Assembly: GCA_029779995.1 (NCBI GenBank)
Contig: JAKOZM010000301.1
Location: forward strand, 1-15,716
Source: Actinomycetes bacterium
GTDB lineage: Bacteria; Actinomycetota; Actinomycetes; S36-B12; UBA10799
DNA: 15,716 nucleotides
Direction: 5' to 3'
The notes beneath the pieces are model-generated. The model was not told the origin of the DNA, ran no database searches, and saw only the letters and a list, made by a program, of their open reading frames with translations. Position numbers and translations under genes: made by a program. Positions 11,169 to 15,716 of this stretch are shown here, in pieces (position 1 is the first letter of the stretch; each line of letters opens with the position of its first letter).

Positions 11169-12332
11169 CTACTCCTCCCTCTCCCCAGCTGCTGGCTGCA
11201 GCACCGCCTCCAGAACGGTGCCACCGCCTTCCCGCGCCCGCCACGTCAATTCTGCCCCGATGCGGTCGGCGCGCTCCTGCATAATGTCCAACCCGAAGCT
11301 GTCGTTGCGCGGTGAGTCCATTCCGTGTCCATCGTCTGCCACCTCGAGGAAGGCTGTCGGGGGATCGGCGCGATACGTCACCCACAGGTTGTCGGCTTCG
11401 GCATGTCGGCGCACGTTGGTGACTGCCTCCTGCGCGATGCGCAGAAGCTCGGTCTCCTGCGGCAAGGACAGCCGGTCGTGACCCTCGTCAATCACCAAAT
11501 GCACCGTCAATCCGGCTGCTGAGGCCGCCTGTTGGACGTAGCTGGTCAAGGCTGAGCCGAGGCCCACTCCCGGCTGGATGTCGGCCCGGAGATCGAAGAT
11601 GCTCAGTCGCAGCTCGCTGATGATGCGGCGCACTTCCGCGCGGATCTCATCGGCGAAGACCTGGTTGTCGGTGCCCTGCAGATCCGCGACCAGGGCGTCC
11701 ATTGCGTACCCGACGCTGGCCAGTTCCTGGGCGATGCCATCGTGGATCTCGCGGGCCAGCCGTCGGCGTTCCTCCATCGTGGCGGCCTGGCGGACCTCGG
11801 TGAAGATCCGCCCGCTGTCGATGCGCAGGGCGTACTCATGGGCCCGTTGCACCGCCTTCTTCAGGGCCGTGTAGTCGAAGGGCTGCTGACTGTCGTTCTG
11901 CAGCACCGCCACTCCGACCAGTCTCGAGCCGAGGGTGAGCGGAATGACCGCCTCCTGTTCCGGTCCGTGGGTGATCAGCCCCTTCGCAGTCTGCGGTTTG
12001 CCGTCACGCACGGCATCGATCACCGCGACCGGGATCGCCGGAAAGACGCTGCGGTCCGATCCCTTGAGGGCATAGGGCACGAAGCGGTCCTCTTGATTGA
12101 GCAGGAGAATCGACCGTTGACTGGGAACGTCCTTGGCCAGTTGATCCAGCGTCTGCTGGGCCAGTGCCACTTCATCCAGCCCGACGGGCAGTTGCCGCGA
12201 GATGGACTGCAGCCGTGTGAGCAGTCGATGAGCCAGGCGGTACTCCTCACCGCTTCGCCGGCGCTGGCCGATGACGACCAGCGTGACCCCCACGGCCACC
12301 AGCACGCCGAGGGCGACCAGCAACAGTTCCAC
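11169..12332 (-). CDS. NarL-family sensor histidine kinase with one membrane helix and a GAF-like domain
   Basis: A 387-aa kinase. Residues 1-21 form a single membrane helix with almost no extracytoplasmic part. Residues about 35-165 look like a cytoplasmic GAF-type sensor (SILLLNQEDRFV, AVIPLTLGSRLVGVAVLQ). The HisKA_3 dimerisation segment follows with phospho-acceptor His197 (RRLAREIHDGIAQEL). The ATPase domain has the N-box Asn306 (QEAVTNVRRHA), G1 motif VADDGHGM (331-338) and SFGLDIMQERA. The input is therefore likely intracellular or membrane-derived. The start is GTG 12332 with no ribosome binding site; TGGAAT lies 6 nt upstream. It is encoded directly before its regulator. Confidence 0.93.
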   Translation of the reverse strand: MELLLVALGVLVAVGVTLVVIGQRRRSGEEYRLAHRLLTRLQSISRQLPVGLDEVALAQQTLDQLAKDVPSQRSILLLNQEDRFVPYALKGSDRSVFPAIPVAVIDAVRDGKPQTAKGLITHGPEQEAVIPLTLGSRLVGVAVLQNDSQQPFDYTALKKAVQRAHEYALRIDSGRIFTEVRQAATMEERRRLAREIHDGIAQELASVGYAMDALVADLQGTDNQVFADEIRAEVRRIISELRLSIFDLRADIQPGVGLGSALTSYVQQAASAAGLTVHLVIDEGHDRLSLPQETELLRIAQEAVTNVRRHAEADNLWVTYRADPPTAFLEVADDGHGMDSPRNDSFGLDIMQERADRIGAELTWRAREGGGTVLEAVLQPAAGEREE

Positions 12333-12338
12333 GACCCG

Positions 12339-12344
12339 ATTCCA
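12339..12344 (-). promoter_or_regulatory. Candidate -10 element of the kinase-regulator operon
   Basis: Minus-strand TGGAAT lies 6 nt before the GTG of the kinase, the same spacing as in front of ctaE, the NlpC-like gene and the GT87-like gene. It lacks the usual A at hexamer position 2, so it is the weakest member of the series. The region from 12345 to 12470 upstream holds no gene and no other recognisable signal. Confidence 0.25.
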
Positions 12345-12470
12345 CCACGACGGGGTGTGCGCAGTCAGCCGTTCGGGTGAGGGGAGGTGACGCGAAGTCG
12401 GCCACCGGTGTCGGAGAACGGTCTGTCGCCCCCCAGCCCAGGCCCCCGAGGTGATGTGCCGGCGACGACT

Positions 12471-12612
12471 GGTTCAAAGATCCGCACGACGGCCGGGATG
12501 ACGCGGAGTTTTGACCCTTACTGCGCCCGATATGCCGGGTATGACCGCTCAGATAGGGTCAGAACTCCGCGCCACGGCCTGCCGAAGCGGTCCGCGTGCG
12601 GATCTTTGAACC
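12471..12612. repeat. 142-bp nested imperfect palindrome (MITE-like or structured-RNA candidate)
   Basis: The outer arms are a perfect 18-bp inverted repeat, GGTTCAAAGATCCGCACG (12471-12488) and CGTGCGGATCTTTGAACC (12595-12612). Inside them is a second 17-bp pair, CGCGGAGTTTTGACCCT (12502-12518) and AGGGTCAGAACTCCGCG (12555-12571), complementary except for one T/G position that pairs as G-U in RNA. Between the two stems GGCCG (12491-12495) pairs with CGGCC (12575-12579). At the centre CCCG (12526-12529) pairs with CGGG (12536-12539). The right side has about 10 extra bases that could make a small hairpin (CCGAAGCGG). It lies between the fadD15 terminator and the kinase operon. It has no coding potential and no obvious flanking target-site duplication. 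It may be a miniature inverted-repeat element or a large RNA or DNA hairpin. Confidence 0.75.
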
Positions 12613-12632
12613 GAATGTGGCCTTGTGGCACA

Positions 12633-12670
12633 GCAGAGGGGGCCCTCCCACGCGGGAAGGCCCCCTCTGC
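12633..12670 (-). terminator. Strong hairpin terminator downstream of fadD15
   Basis: A perfect 12-bp stem, GCAGAGGGGGCC (12633-12644) with GGCCCCCTCTGC (12659-12670), encloses a 14-nt loop that itself contains TCCC and GGGA. It begins 6 bp past the fadD15 stop codon. There is no U tract after it on either strand, which is common for actinobacterial hairpin terminators. Being symmetric, it could stop transcription from either side. Confidence 0.85.
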
Positions 12671-12676
12671 CGACTG

Positions 12677-14464
12677 TCAGGCGTACAGTGCCTCGACGTC
12701 GCTACCGAACTCCTTCATCACAACGTTGCGCTTGAGCTTCATCGAGGGGGTCAGTTGGCCACCCTCTTCTGTCCAGTCAACGCCGAGAATGTGGAACTTC
12801 TTGATGGCCTCGGCGTTACTGACCGCCTTGTTGGCCTGGTCCACTGCCTGCTGCATCTCAGCGATCACCTTCGGGTTGTTCGCAAGGTCGGCGATGGGTG
12901 TGTCCGCGGGCAGGTCATTCTGATCCAGCCAGGTGGGAACGGCCTCGGGGTCCAGCGTGATCAGAGCCGCGATGTACGGCTTGTTGTCGCCCACCACCAT
13001 GCACTGGCTGATGAGCATGTGGGCGCGCAAACGATCCTCAAGCACAGCCGGCGCCACGTTCTTACCCCCTGCGGTGACGATCAGCTCCTTCTTACGACCG
13101 GTGATCCGCAGGAACCCGTCCTTGTCCAGCTCGCCGATGTCCCCACTGTGGAACCAACCATCGGCCTCCAGCACCTCAGCGGTGGCCTTCTCGTTGTTCC
13201 AGTAGCCACGGAAGATCTGCCCGCCCTTGAGCAGGATCTCGCCGTCCGAGGCGATCTTCACGCTCGCCCCCGGGATGGGGCGCCCCACCGAACCCACTCT
13301 GATGGCGTCGGGCCGGTTGACCGTGGTGGCCGCTGAGGTCTCGGTCAGGCCGTAGCCCTCGAGGATCGTCACCCCGATGCCGCGGAAGAAGTGGCCGAGG
13401 CGGTCACCGAGAGCGGCACCACCTGAGACGGCGTACTTCACCTCACCGCCGAGGGCGGCGCGCAGTTTGCTGTAGACCAACTTGTCGAACACGAAATGCT
13501 TGATCTTCTGCACCAGGCTGGGACCACCGGTGTCCAGGGCTTTGGAGTACGAGATCGCCTCCGACGCCGCCATGTCGAAGATCTTGCCCTTGCCGTCGTT
13601 GACTGCCTTCGTGCGGGCGTTGTTGTAGACCTTCTCGAACACCCGGGGCACGGACAGCAGGAACGACGGCTTGAACTCGCCAAGGTGGGCGACGATGTTC
13701 TTGACGTCCGAGGTGTGACCCAGCACGGTCCCGGATTCGATGCAGCCGACCTGGATCACCCGACCGAACACGTGGGCCAATGGAATGAACAGCAACGTCG
13801 ACGAGGTCGAGTCGAACAGGTTCGGCATGCTCTTGACCACGTTGTCGACCTCGAAGCGGAAGTTCGACTGAGTGAGCACACAGCCCTTGGGCCGACCGGT
13901 TGTGCCGGAGGTGTAAATGATGGTCGAGATGTCCTCGGGCCCCACAGCGCTGCGCCGGGACTCCACCTCAGCGGCCGAGATGTCGGCGCCAGCGGCCACG
14001 AGGTCGGCCACCGCCCCATCATCGAAAACCCAGACGTGCTTGGTGGGCACCTTGTCGGCCACTTCGGCGAAGGTCGCCTTGTGGCGGTCGGCCTCCAAGA
14101 ACACGGCGACGCAACCGGCGTCGGACAGGATCCATTCGACCTGCTCGGCCGAGGAGGTCTCATAGATCGGGACGACTGTGGCTCCCACGAACCAACCGGC
14201 GTAGTCGGCCAGCGTCCACTCGTAGCGGGTCGCCGACATGATGGCGATCCGGTCACCGTGCTCGATGCCGGCCGCGATCAGACCCTTGGCAAGGTCGATC
14301 ACCTCGTCGTGGAACTGCTTGGCACTGACCTCGCTCCACTGGCCCCCCACGAGCCTGCGCAGGGCGACGCGGTCTGGTGTTGCCGATGCATGGTGGACCA
14401 CGCTGTCCGTCAGGCCACCGGATGTAATGGGATGGGCGACCGGCGCCTCGGAAACCTCGATCAT
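12677..14464 (-). CDS. fadD15: Long-chain fatty acid-CoA ligase, FadD15-type
   Basis: A 595-aa AMP-forming acyl-CoA synthetase that activates long-chain fatty acids with ATP and CoA. Motifs (numbered from the ATG) are the phosphate-binding loop TIIYTSGTTGRPKG (about 181-194), EGYGLTETSAATT (369-381), GWFHSGDIGELDKDGFLRITG (436-456), the linker RKKELIVTAGGKNVAP, and a C-terminal catalytic Lys in TPSMKLKRNVV (about 572-582). Length and motifs fit the FadD15 group. I chose ATG 14464, preceded by GAGGAG (14476-14471) with a 6-nt spacer, over an in-frame TTG at 14467 that would be only 3 nt from it. A strong terminator follows the stop. An IS5-family element sits 61 bp upstream, so native upstream control may be altered. 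Confidence 0.95.
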   Translation of the reverse strand: MIEVSEAPVAHPITSGGLTDSVVHHASATPDRVALRRLVGGQWSEVSAKQFHDEVIDLAKGLIAAGIEHGDRIAIMSATRYEWTLADYAGWFVGATVVPIYETSSAEQVEWILSDAGCVAVFLEADRHKATFAEVADKVPTKHVWVFDDGAVADLVAAGADISAAEVESRRSAVGPEDISTIIYTSGTTGRPKGCVLTQSNFRFEVDNVVKSMPNLFDSTSSTLLFIPLAHVFGRVIQVGCIESGTVLGHTSDVKNIVAHLGEFKPSFLLSVPRVFEKVYNNARTKAVNDGKGKIFDMAASEAISYSKALDTGGPSLVQKIKHFVFDKLVYSKLRAALGGEVKYAVSGGAALGDRLGHFFRGIGVTILEGYGLTETSAATTVNRPDAIRVGSVGRPIPGASVKIASDGEILLKGGQIFRGYWNNEKATAEVLEADGWFHSGDIGELDKDGFLRITGRKKELIVTAGGKNVAPAVLEDRLRAHMLISQCMVVGDNKPYIAALITLDPEAVPTWLDQNDLPADTPIADLANNPKVIAEMQQAVDQANKAVSNAEAIKKFHILGVDWTEEGGQLTPSMKLKRNVVMKEFGSDVEALYA

Positions 14465-14485
14465 CAACTGCTCCTCGTCGTCAAT

Positions 14486-14521: not shown

Positions 14522-14525
14522 CTAA
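14522..14525. repeat. Left target-site duplication CTAA of the IS5-family element
   Basis: CTAA directly abuts the left inverted repeat GGAAGC and is matched by CTAA at 15713-15716 just after the right repeat. It fits the YTAR target and 4-bp duplication known for the IS5 group. Confidence 0.75.
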
Positions 14526-14540
14526 GGAAGCACTGATCTG
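14526..14540. repeat. Left terminal inverted repeat of the IS5-family element
   Basis: GGAAGCACTGATCTG matches the right end (GGAAACGCTGATTTA when read inward) at 11 of 15 positions and starts directly after the CTAA duplication. Confidence 0.85.
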
Positions 14541-14630
14541 TGGGTGTTCTGTAGGTGCGGGGTCCAGGTCGGGGTAGTTTCCGGGTGATTCCCGTGATGG
14601 GCGACCCCTTTCGGGGCCTTGTCGGGGTGT

Positions 14631-14677
14631 CCTGACCGTTTCCGGGCAGGCTGGCGCCGGGCCGTTACCCGGTCAGG
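14631..14677. terminator. Possible hairpin at the end of the transposase gene
   Basis: CCTGACCG (14631-14638) and CGGTCAGG (14670-14677) form a perfect 8-bp inverted repeat, and CCGG pairs lie in the intervening sequence. It spans the transposase stop codon (TAA, 14667-14665) and could limit read-through out of the IS toward fadD15. A smaller CCCC/GGGG hairpin lies at 14605-14616. No T tract is present, so termination is uncertain. The remainder of the noncoding IS end (14541-14630) shows nothing else. Confidence 0.35.
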
Positions 14678-15648
14678 GCAACGGCACGGGCCCGCATCAG
14701 CCAGTTCGCCGACGCGAACAGCATGTGCAGATGGTTGAGGTTCTTGGCTATCCCGCGGTATCGGGTCTTGGTGAACCCGAAGTCACGTTTCACGATCAGG
14801 AACGGGTGCTCCACCTTCGCCCGCACCGACGCCTGCTGGGAGGCCTCTACCCGGTCGTGGGCGGGCATCGCCTTGAGCGTTCCCTTACGCGGCGCGACCC
14901 GCCACCGTACCGACGACATGTGCTCATCGGCGACGACGTCGCCACGTCTGTCGACGCCTTGGTAGCCGGCGTCGGTGTACACCACCTCGTCATCGGAACG
15001 GACCAGTTTGGTGACCTCGTCGAGGTCGTGGACATTCGCCGACGTGGCCGTCACCGAATGGATGTAGCCGGTACCGGCGTCGACTCCGATGTGGGCCTTC
15101 ATCCCGAAGTACCACTGGTTGCCCTTCTTCGTCTGATGCATCTCCGGATCACGCTCACCCGTGGCGTTCTTCGTTGACGAGGGTGCGGCGATGATCGTGG
15201 CGTCCACGATCGACCCCCCGCGCATGATCCAGCCCTGCTCATCGAACATCGCCGTCTGCGCGGCCAGCAGTTTCTCGCCCAGGCCGTGTTTCTCGATCAG
15301 GTGCCGGAAATGCAGCAGGGTGGTGGCGTCCGGGACCTGCTCGACCGCGAAGTTCAGCCTCATGAACCGGCGCATCGCGTACGAGTCGTAGATCGCGTCC
15401 TCCACGCCTTCGTCGGACAGCGAGAACCACACCTGCAACAGGTACATCCGCAGCATCGTCTCCAGCGGTTTCGGCTTCCGGCCCTTCTTCCCGCCGCGCT
15501 TCTCGGCGTAGTAGAACGGCTCGATCAACCCCACCCACACATCCCACGGAATGGTCTCGTCCATCGACTCCAGAAACTGCTCCCGGCGTGACACCCGACG
15601 CCGATTCCCGTACTCCAGATCCGTGAACGAAGGCTGCTCAACACCCAT
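14665..15648 (-). CDS. IS5-family DDE transposase
   Basis: A 327-aa transposase that cuts and joins the IS ends. The N-terminal region carries the helical domain usual for the family (YYAEKRGGKKGRKPKPLETMLR, split by position around 46-67). The catalytic triad is Asp149 (SIVDATIIAAPSSTKN), Asp226 (VVYTDAGYQG) and Glu280 (RAKVEHPFLIVKRDFG), with the conserved downstream Lys/Arg of the Y-(2)-R-(3)-E-(6)-K region. The frame is intact from ATG 15648 to TAA, so it is likely functional. No ribosome binding site precedes the ATG, but GACAAT lies 5 nt upstream on the minus strand. It is the only gene of the element. Confidence 0.95.
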   Translation of the reverse strand: MGVEQPSFTDLEYGNRRRVSRREQFLESMDETIPWDVWVGLIEPFYYAEKRGGKKGRKPKPLETMLRMYLLQVWFSLSDEGVEDAIYDSYAMRRFMRLNFAVEQVPDATTLLHFRHLIEKHGLGEKLLAAQTAMFDEQGWIMRGGSIVDATIIAAPSSTKNATGERDPEMHQTKKGNQWYFGMKAHIGVDAGTGYIHSVTATSANVHDLDEVTKLVRSDDEVVYTDAGYQGVDRRGDVVADEHMSSVRWRVAPRKGTLKAMPAHDRVEASQQASVRAKVEHPFLIVKRDFGFTKTRYRGIAKNLNHLHMLFASANWLMRARAVALTG

Positions 15649-15697
15649 GATTCATTGTCCCGGAAACCATCCATCCGAAGCACCCAGGACGAGCGAG

Positions 15698-15712
15698 TAA
15701 ATCAGCGTTTCC
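15698..15712. repeat. Right terminal inverted repeat of the IS5-family element
   Basis: TAAATCAGCGTTTCC on the plus strand is the inverted counterpart of the left end. It is separated from the transposase start by about 50 bp, which would hold the transposase promoter. Confidence 0.85.
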
Positions 15713-15716
15713 CTAA
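15713..15716. repeat. Right target-site duplication CTAA, at the window end
   Basis: CTAA directly follows the right inverted repeat and equals the left flank (14522-14525). The window ends here, so the uninterrupted target cannot be confirmed. Confidence 0.65.

Follow-up and report, generated by a model that had tools for sequence, protein, structure and literature searches.

The locus and its genes

The window, that is, the whole 15,716-nucleotide stretch of DNA analysed here, originates from an Actinomycetes bacterium and carries, in minus-strand order, a fadD15-like ligase gene, a 17-bp hairpin, a 142-bp nested quasi-palindrome, a sensor kinase gene and the gene of a LuxR-type response regulator. 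The AMP-binding acyl-CoA ligase (PF00501), for which the name fadD15 is taken from the preliminary description, is encoded at 12677–14467 on the minus strand, upstream of the palindrome. The hairpin after it (12633–12670, minus strand; 17 bp, loop of 4, −39.6 kcal/mol) is a structure separate from the palindrome, as had been described, and is probably the fadD15 terminator; it has no T run, and a consensus scan returned no terminator-like sites. The sensor histidine kinase, with HisKA_3 and HATPase_c domains, is encoded at 11169–12332 on the minus strand, downstream of the palindrome. Directly before its start lies the sequence GTGGTGGAATCG (12337–12348, minus strand), also present in G116, the genome of the nearest relative. 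Relatives of the window kinase include sequences from Candidatus Nanopelagicales MAGs at 73–75% identity and others at 81–86%, and the host is probably an actinobacterium of the Nanopelagicales type. A kinase search of genome contigs covered 80 of 552 matches, beyond which closer relatives may lie; the kinase search of viral contigs found no relative.

In 48 of 175 loci fadD15 and the kinase gene lie within 3 kb of each other, the locus set including four repeats of places already counted (L081, L083, L084 and L085). In 47 of these 48 loci the kinase frame is open across at least 70% of the gap between the two genes, so that the gap there encodes an extended kinase N-terminus. A survey of eleven gaps for inverted repeats gave 11 as the longest perfect arm. 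The window kinase is without the N-terminal part whose reading frame takes up the gap in those 47 loci.

The palindrome had been said to code for nothing. This is likely, judging from the plus-strand ORF 12387–12923, for which a search of predicted proteins found no homologue, although that frame does run through the palindrome.

The right end of the window (14522–15716) is occupied by an insertion sequence, presumably IS5-like, with a 327-aa DDE transposase frame (14665–15648, minus strand), imperfect 15-bp ends (12/15) and CTAA at each end; the right-hand CTAA coincides with the last bases of the window.

Architecture of the palindrome

The element (12471–12612, 142 bp, no strand assigned) can be aligned with its own reverse complement over the whole length, at a mean column identity of 83% and with a 10-nt gap on each side. 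The outer left arm, GGTTCAAAGATCCGCACG (12471–12488, plus strand), is complementary at 18 of 18 positions to the outer right arm (12595–12612, minus strand), with which it forms a perfect inverted repeat. Nested between them are two inner arms of 20 nt, the left one at 12499–12518 on the minus strand and the right one at 12555–12574 on the plus strand, joined by 18 Watson-Crick pairs out of 20, one wobble and one mismatch. The central loop (12519–12554, no strand assigned) forms a stem of 4–5 bp (CCCG/CGGG) in predicted folds. All three levels of pairing agree with the preliminary description, but its claim that the stems share one centre does not hold: the outer arms are centred at 12541.5 and the inner arms at 12536.5, 5 nt apart, because the spacers between outer and inner arms are unequal (10 nt on the left, 20 nt on the right).

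The inner arms resemble the outer arms, with alternating orientation. An inverted motif inside the inner left arm, GGGTCAAAACTCCGC on the minus strand (12502–12516), matches the outer arm at 12 of 15 positions, and the motif inside the inner right arm, GGGTCAGAACTCCGC (12556–12570), at 11 of 15, or 18 of 24 with an extension; the ungapped scores were equalled by 22 of 2000 shuffles on the left and by 1 of 2000 on the right. The element ends in GG...CC. No target-site duplication, sought as a direct repeat of at least 5 bp, was found at the palindrome tips; the flanks have two 5-mers in common, neither in register with the tips.

The palindrome is real and far beyond chance, as had been claimed. 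Its RNA fold reaches −97.9 kcal/mol on the plus strand (z −9.7) and −93.9 kcal/mol on the minus strand (z −8.5), and its DNA fold has a z of −9.2; in each case none of 200 shuffles was as stable. The inner 76 nt folded alone give z values of −6.8 and −6.1; when the left and right units are folded separately, the left one is not above chance (z −0.27) and the right one has a z of −2.4. No other inverted pair in the window has perfect arms of at least 14 within 300 bases. In 1,730,576 bases, comprising 173 loci and the window, perfect arms of at least 18 with a span of about 60–320 occur at 11 places including the window, and four of these, again including the window, span at least 100. Palindromes like that of the window are rare, not unique. 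One of 149 bp, with 28-bp perfect arms (GGTGCGGTGTCCACC...), lies at 18277–18425 of L029, from another actinobacterial MAG.

Such stability on both strands would suit an RNA of the kinase operon, either a structured 5' leader or a small RNA, and a G-U pair had earlier been taken to favour a plus-strand RNA slightly. However, there are two imperfect positions in the inner stem: T12511/G12562 is U-G on the plus strand and A-C on the minus strand, and A12501/C12572 is A-C on the plus strand and U-G on the minus strand. With one wobble and one mismatch on each strand, the plus-strand argument fails and no strand is preferred. The whole window gave no Rfam match at gathering score. Two further points against an RNA come from G116, which has no long hairpin at this place and whose analogous family of palindromes, considered below, shows no covariation above shuffles.

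The orthologous spacer in the nearest relative

Among 166 genomes of the order, G116 holds the only close orthologue of the kinase (72%; next best 52%), and its best fadD15 is 79%. The gene order is as in the window, the fadD15 end being followed by the kinase, and the gap holds a terminator-like hairpin plus about 80 bp of further sequence, with no long palindrome. The hairpins after fadD15 agree between the window and G116 in position, not in sequence. In the G116 assembly the 3' end of fadD15 and the spacer behind it occur in two versions, L121 and L141, so the assembly may be a strain mixture.

The spacer in L121 resembles, with matching order and orientation, the inner part of the window element (76 nt, 12499–12574, minus strand). 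The alignment, whose blocks are GGAG-TCTGACCC, GCATRTCGG and GGGTCMAAAC, has a score of 41.5, equalled by none of 3000 GC-matched G116 segments, the inner 76 nt having been chosen for testing only after the alignment had been seen; against the second haplotype, L141, 13 of 3000 segments scored as high. For the whole element the corresponding counts are 18 of 3000 (L121) and 293 of 3000 (L141), with 2 of 500 shuffles as high. The 138-nt stretch from the palindrome to the kinase, with the common GTGGTGGAATCG, was equalled by 84 of 3000 and 2267 of 3000 segments; since it too reaches 84 of 3000, part of the resemblance signal may be general. If the resemblance is real, the inner sites would be ancestral at this place, either as an operator of that operon or as the counterpart of an old element's remains in G116.

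Because the inner 76 nt match the orthologous spacer better than all 3000 controls, the main rival to the reading favoured below is that the palindrome is cis-regulatory DNA of the kinase/response-regulator operon, which we regard as possible but on the whole unlikely. The inner sites (TGACCC ... GGGTCA), which lie after the fadD15 terminator and ahead of the kinase start, would then be an ancestral regulator-binding pair, to which the outer pair would have been added as a second; the binder would be a regulator, perhaps the LuxR-type partner itself. As the neighbouring hairpins after fadD15 have diverged in sequence while keeping their position, conserved inner blocks would imply function. 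The preliminary description had suggested a leader or regulatory RNA for the kinase operon; a regulatory role at the level of DNA is conceivable, given the resemblance of the inner 76 nt to the G116 spacer. Nevertheless, 18-bp perfect arms 106 nt apart, together with 20-nt inner arms, far exceed what an operator needs, and the G116 spacer keeps at most GACCC/GGGTC pairing. The post hoc choice of the test region and the score of the 138-nt stretch also weigh against an operator, as does the coding nature of the gap in other syntenic actinobacteria (47 of 48 loci). A consensus scan found no promoter, the same result as in shuffles. If the inner sites are an operator, they would offer a lead to the regulation of a two-component operon kept beside fadD15 in many actinobacteria.

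The short inverted pair at this place in G116 is also relevant to a local origin. A shorter ancestral inverted repeat, for example the GACCC/GGGTC pair, might have grown by replication-fork template switching into a functionless quasi-palindrome whose symmetry is kept by the same process. This is improbable, in spite of the missing target duplication and of the failure to find a second copy in the sequences searched, both of which agree with it: two conserved blocks with a diverged, unequal spacer are unlike the product of one switching event, and the likeness in layout to the G116 family would be coincidence.

A family of nested palindromes and the mobile-element reading

Further copies of the element were sought widely. 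None above background was found in plasmids and phages, nor in related actinobacterial genomes (166 of the order, 394 of the class), where the preliminary description had proposed looking for them. In the 166 order genomes blastn gave short matches only (best E 0.002, about 29 bp) and none of full length, a covariance model reached E 1 or better in two genomes, with matches of 41–59 nt only, and the paired-motif pattern was absent from all 166. Exact 12-bp ends with a span of 127–157 bp gave no match in the species genomes. At class level, blastn matches at E 0.01 occurred in 55 of 394 genomes; the control, the element reversed without complementing, matched 45 of 394, so the result is near background; upon re-examination of 44 class-match loci, 40 matched, all within stop-free frames of 183–1006 aa. 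Viral contigs searched by both ends and by the inner arms held no relative; a single 18-bp viral match has no inverted repeat around it and appears coding by eye. A degenerate 15-bp motif (at most 2 mismatches) occurred 483 times in eight genomes versus 338 for the reversed pattern, and 61 versus 42 times in G116, an excess that may reflect composition. A full-length insertion sequence sharing the ends of the element, also proposed earlier as something to look for, was not encountered: the insertion sequence of the window has other ends, and GGTTCAAAGATCC was found in 3 of 166 order genomes, at one site each, with an equal result for the reversed-pattern control. A 29-bp "arm" in L185 turned out to be a run of N.

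G116 itself harbours a dispersed family of nested palindromes. It was spotted via repeated arms, in two initial copies of sequence unlike that of the window; a nested-palindrome filter applied to 120 G116 contigs (690,489 bases) found none; 47 of these contigs were masked in part or entirely, and the 73 others total 564,239 bases. The whole genome (3.0 Mb) contains 18 full-length or nearly full-length places of 81–100% identity, one of them (L326) cut by a contig end, as well as divergent ones, three of which score 65–90 bits with the family model; the members are labelled L311–L337. The 145-bp core consists of an outer arm, 16 nt, an inner arm, about 38 nt, an inner arm, 5 nt and an outer arm, and CGTAC-N6-GGTTG occurs four times per element in alternating orientation. 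Twenty of the 21 copies examined have no overlap of at least 20 nt with a coding-like ORF, defined as at least 90 aa with GC3 of at least 0.78; the exception is the end of L313, and L325 and L337 are in contact with such an ORF. In some loci the sequence is too short for both flanking genes to be seen. By eye, the flanks of the copies differ, and the divergent L329 and L333 share theirs. Outside G116, the family appears at E 1e-4 in one other genome of the 166 (G151), as 25 bp inside a long gene, presumably lepA, a match put down to chance.

In an alignment of 17 copies, excluding the truncated L326 and the divergent ones, stretches of the four motif blocks show little or no variation, and most changes between them are uncompensated. 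Paired cells amount to 87.9% for the nested fold and 87.7% for a two-hairpin fold versus 30–44% for slid versions, a difference expected from a structure taken from the consensus. Covariation did not exceed that of shuffles (239 of 500 and 149 of 500 as high), and among 31 pairs RNAalifold showed 2 in which both sides had changed with pairing preserved. Conserved motif blocks and pairs without covariation fit protein-recognised DNA better than RNA, and the leader or small RNA considered above is a very remote prospect.

The window element and the G116 family are much alike in layout. The core measures 142 bp in the window and 145 bp in G116, the outer arms pair at 18 of 18 positions versus a predicted 14 pairs in about 17, the inner arms at 18 of 20 versus 17 in 24, and the central gap between motifs is 39 versus 38 nt. 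The outer-inner spacers are 10/20 and 16/5, unequal by 10–11 nt in both; motifs alternate, with an inverted relative of the outer motif on the inner arm, and the window element is intergenic, as most G116 sites are. In contrast, the arm sequences have no detectable relation. The G116 model scores the window palindrome weakly and through its inner hairpin only (16.1 and 14.1 bits, E 0.006 and 0.02; next window place 13.0), so homology of the two is not shown, and the window model found nothing in seven G116 loci. The four-motif layout alone is not specific and not rare in GC-rich DNA: at a strict threshold it missed the window copy, 40 of the 63 places found lay outside G116, and 1.5 Mb of shuffled DNA returned 11 raw matches. 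A similarity of the central loops (GCGCCCGAWATG) was set aside because, with the long/short polarity taken as reference, it runs on opposite strands. It is rather doubtful that the two are sequence-divergent branches of one undescribed actinobacterial class of mobile hairpins. Such a class would have four alternately oriented binding sites around a core of roughly 38 nt, with one pair of arms displaced by about a helical turn, and its motif would shift from species to species along with the putative enzyme.

The reading we favour, tentatively and at slightly less than an even chance, is that the window palindrome is one copy of a lineage-specific, non-autonomous, intergenic element of the MITE/REPIN/ERIC type. 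Support comes from the palindrome structure, the absence of a palindrome from the orthologous G116 gap, the dispersed G116 family of similar layout and its intergenic bias, and sites conserved without covariation. The element would work like the MITE and REPIN families, of which it is a putative rather than an established member; one copy is known. An enzyme that handles DNA and is encoded at another place, a candidate being a trans-acting transposase, would bind the outer arms and the alternately oriented inner motifs of the element, and single-stranded DNA would allow the hairpin to form. More copies in the window's genome, past movement and a responsible enzyme would be expected. Against this stand the lack of a second copy among the genomes searched, the lack of a target-site duplication, the other ends of the insertion sequence in the window and the unrelated sequence of the G116 family, which through its size and layout nonetheless favours the earlier suggestion of a MITE or repeated extragenic hairpin. 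The resemblance of the inner 76 nt to the G116 gap would also be unexpected under a clean recent insertion.

Enterobacteria, Pseudomonas and Neisseria provide the best-described examples of small dispersed palindromes. IS-derived MITEs are short and non-coding and have long terminal inverted repeats; the window element, at 142 bp well below 600 bp, apparently non-coding and with 18-bp perfect ends, resembles them in all three respects and differs in that no parent insertion sequence with its ends and no target duplication were found. ERIC (127 bp) and YPAL (about 168 bp) are enterobacterial intergenic palindromes termed MITE-like (PMC2759123). The window element shares with them the length range, a stable stem-loop, the intergenic location and an open frame through the element, whereas theirs are repeated units with TA ends and a TA duplication at insertion (PMC2759123). 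REPINs are hairpin-forming doublets of REP sequences tied to RAYT tyrosine transposases and fold as a long hairpin or a "clover" (PMC3116915). Inverted conserved units likewise flank a spacer in the window element, and single G116 copies are folded into two hairpins (L337) or one (L314); the comparison is one of layout, and no RAYT was found near the palindrome among the 10 Pfam-scanned window proteins, the single transposase being of the DDE type.

A family of about twenty copies confined to one of 166 order genomes, together with an apparent counterpart with another motif in a related genome, would make a case for studying the rate at which recognition sites change in such elements and the nature of their mover.

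A common pair of flanking sequences, like GGCTGTTGCTGAATTCCGGT and ATCCGGACCCCAACAGG at opposite sides, accompanies several G116 copies (L314, L316, L317, L320, L322 and L323); the mobile unit in G116 may therefore exceed the 145-bp core. It is also worth mentioning that a second short palindromic repeat, roughly TTTTCCGGCGAT...GTTGCCGGTTTTCCGCAT, lies by eye beside L312, L313, L318–L320, L327 and L328, which suggests that the G116 genome is rich in extragenic palindromes.
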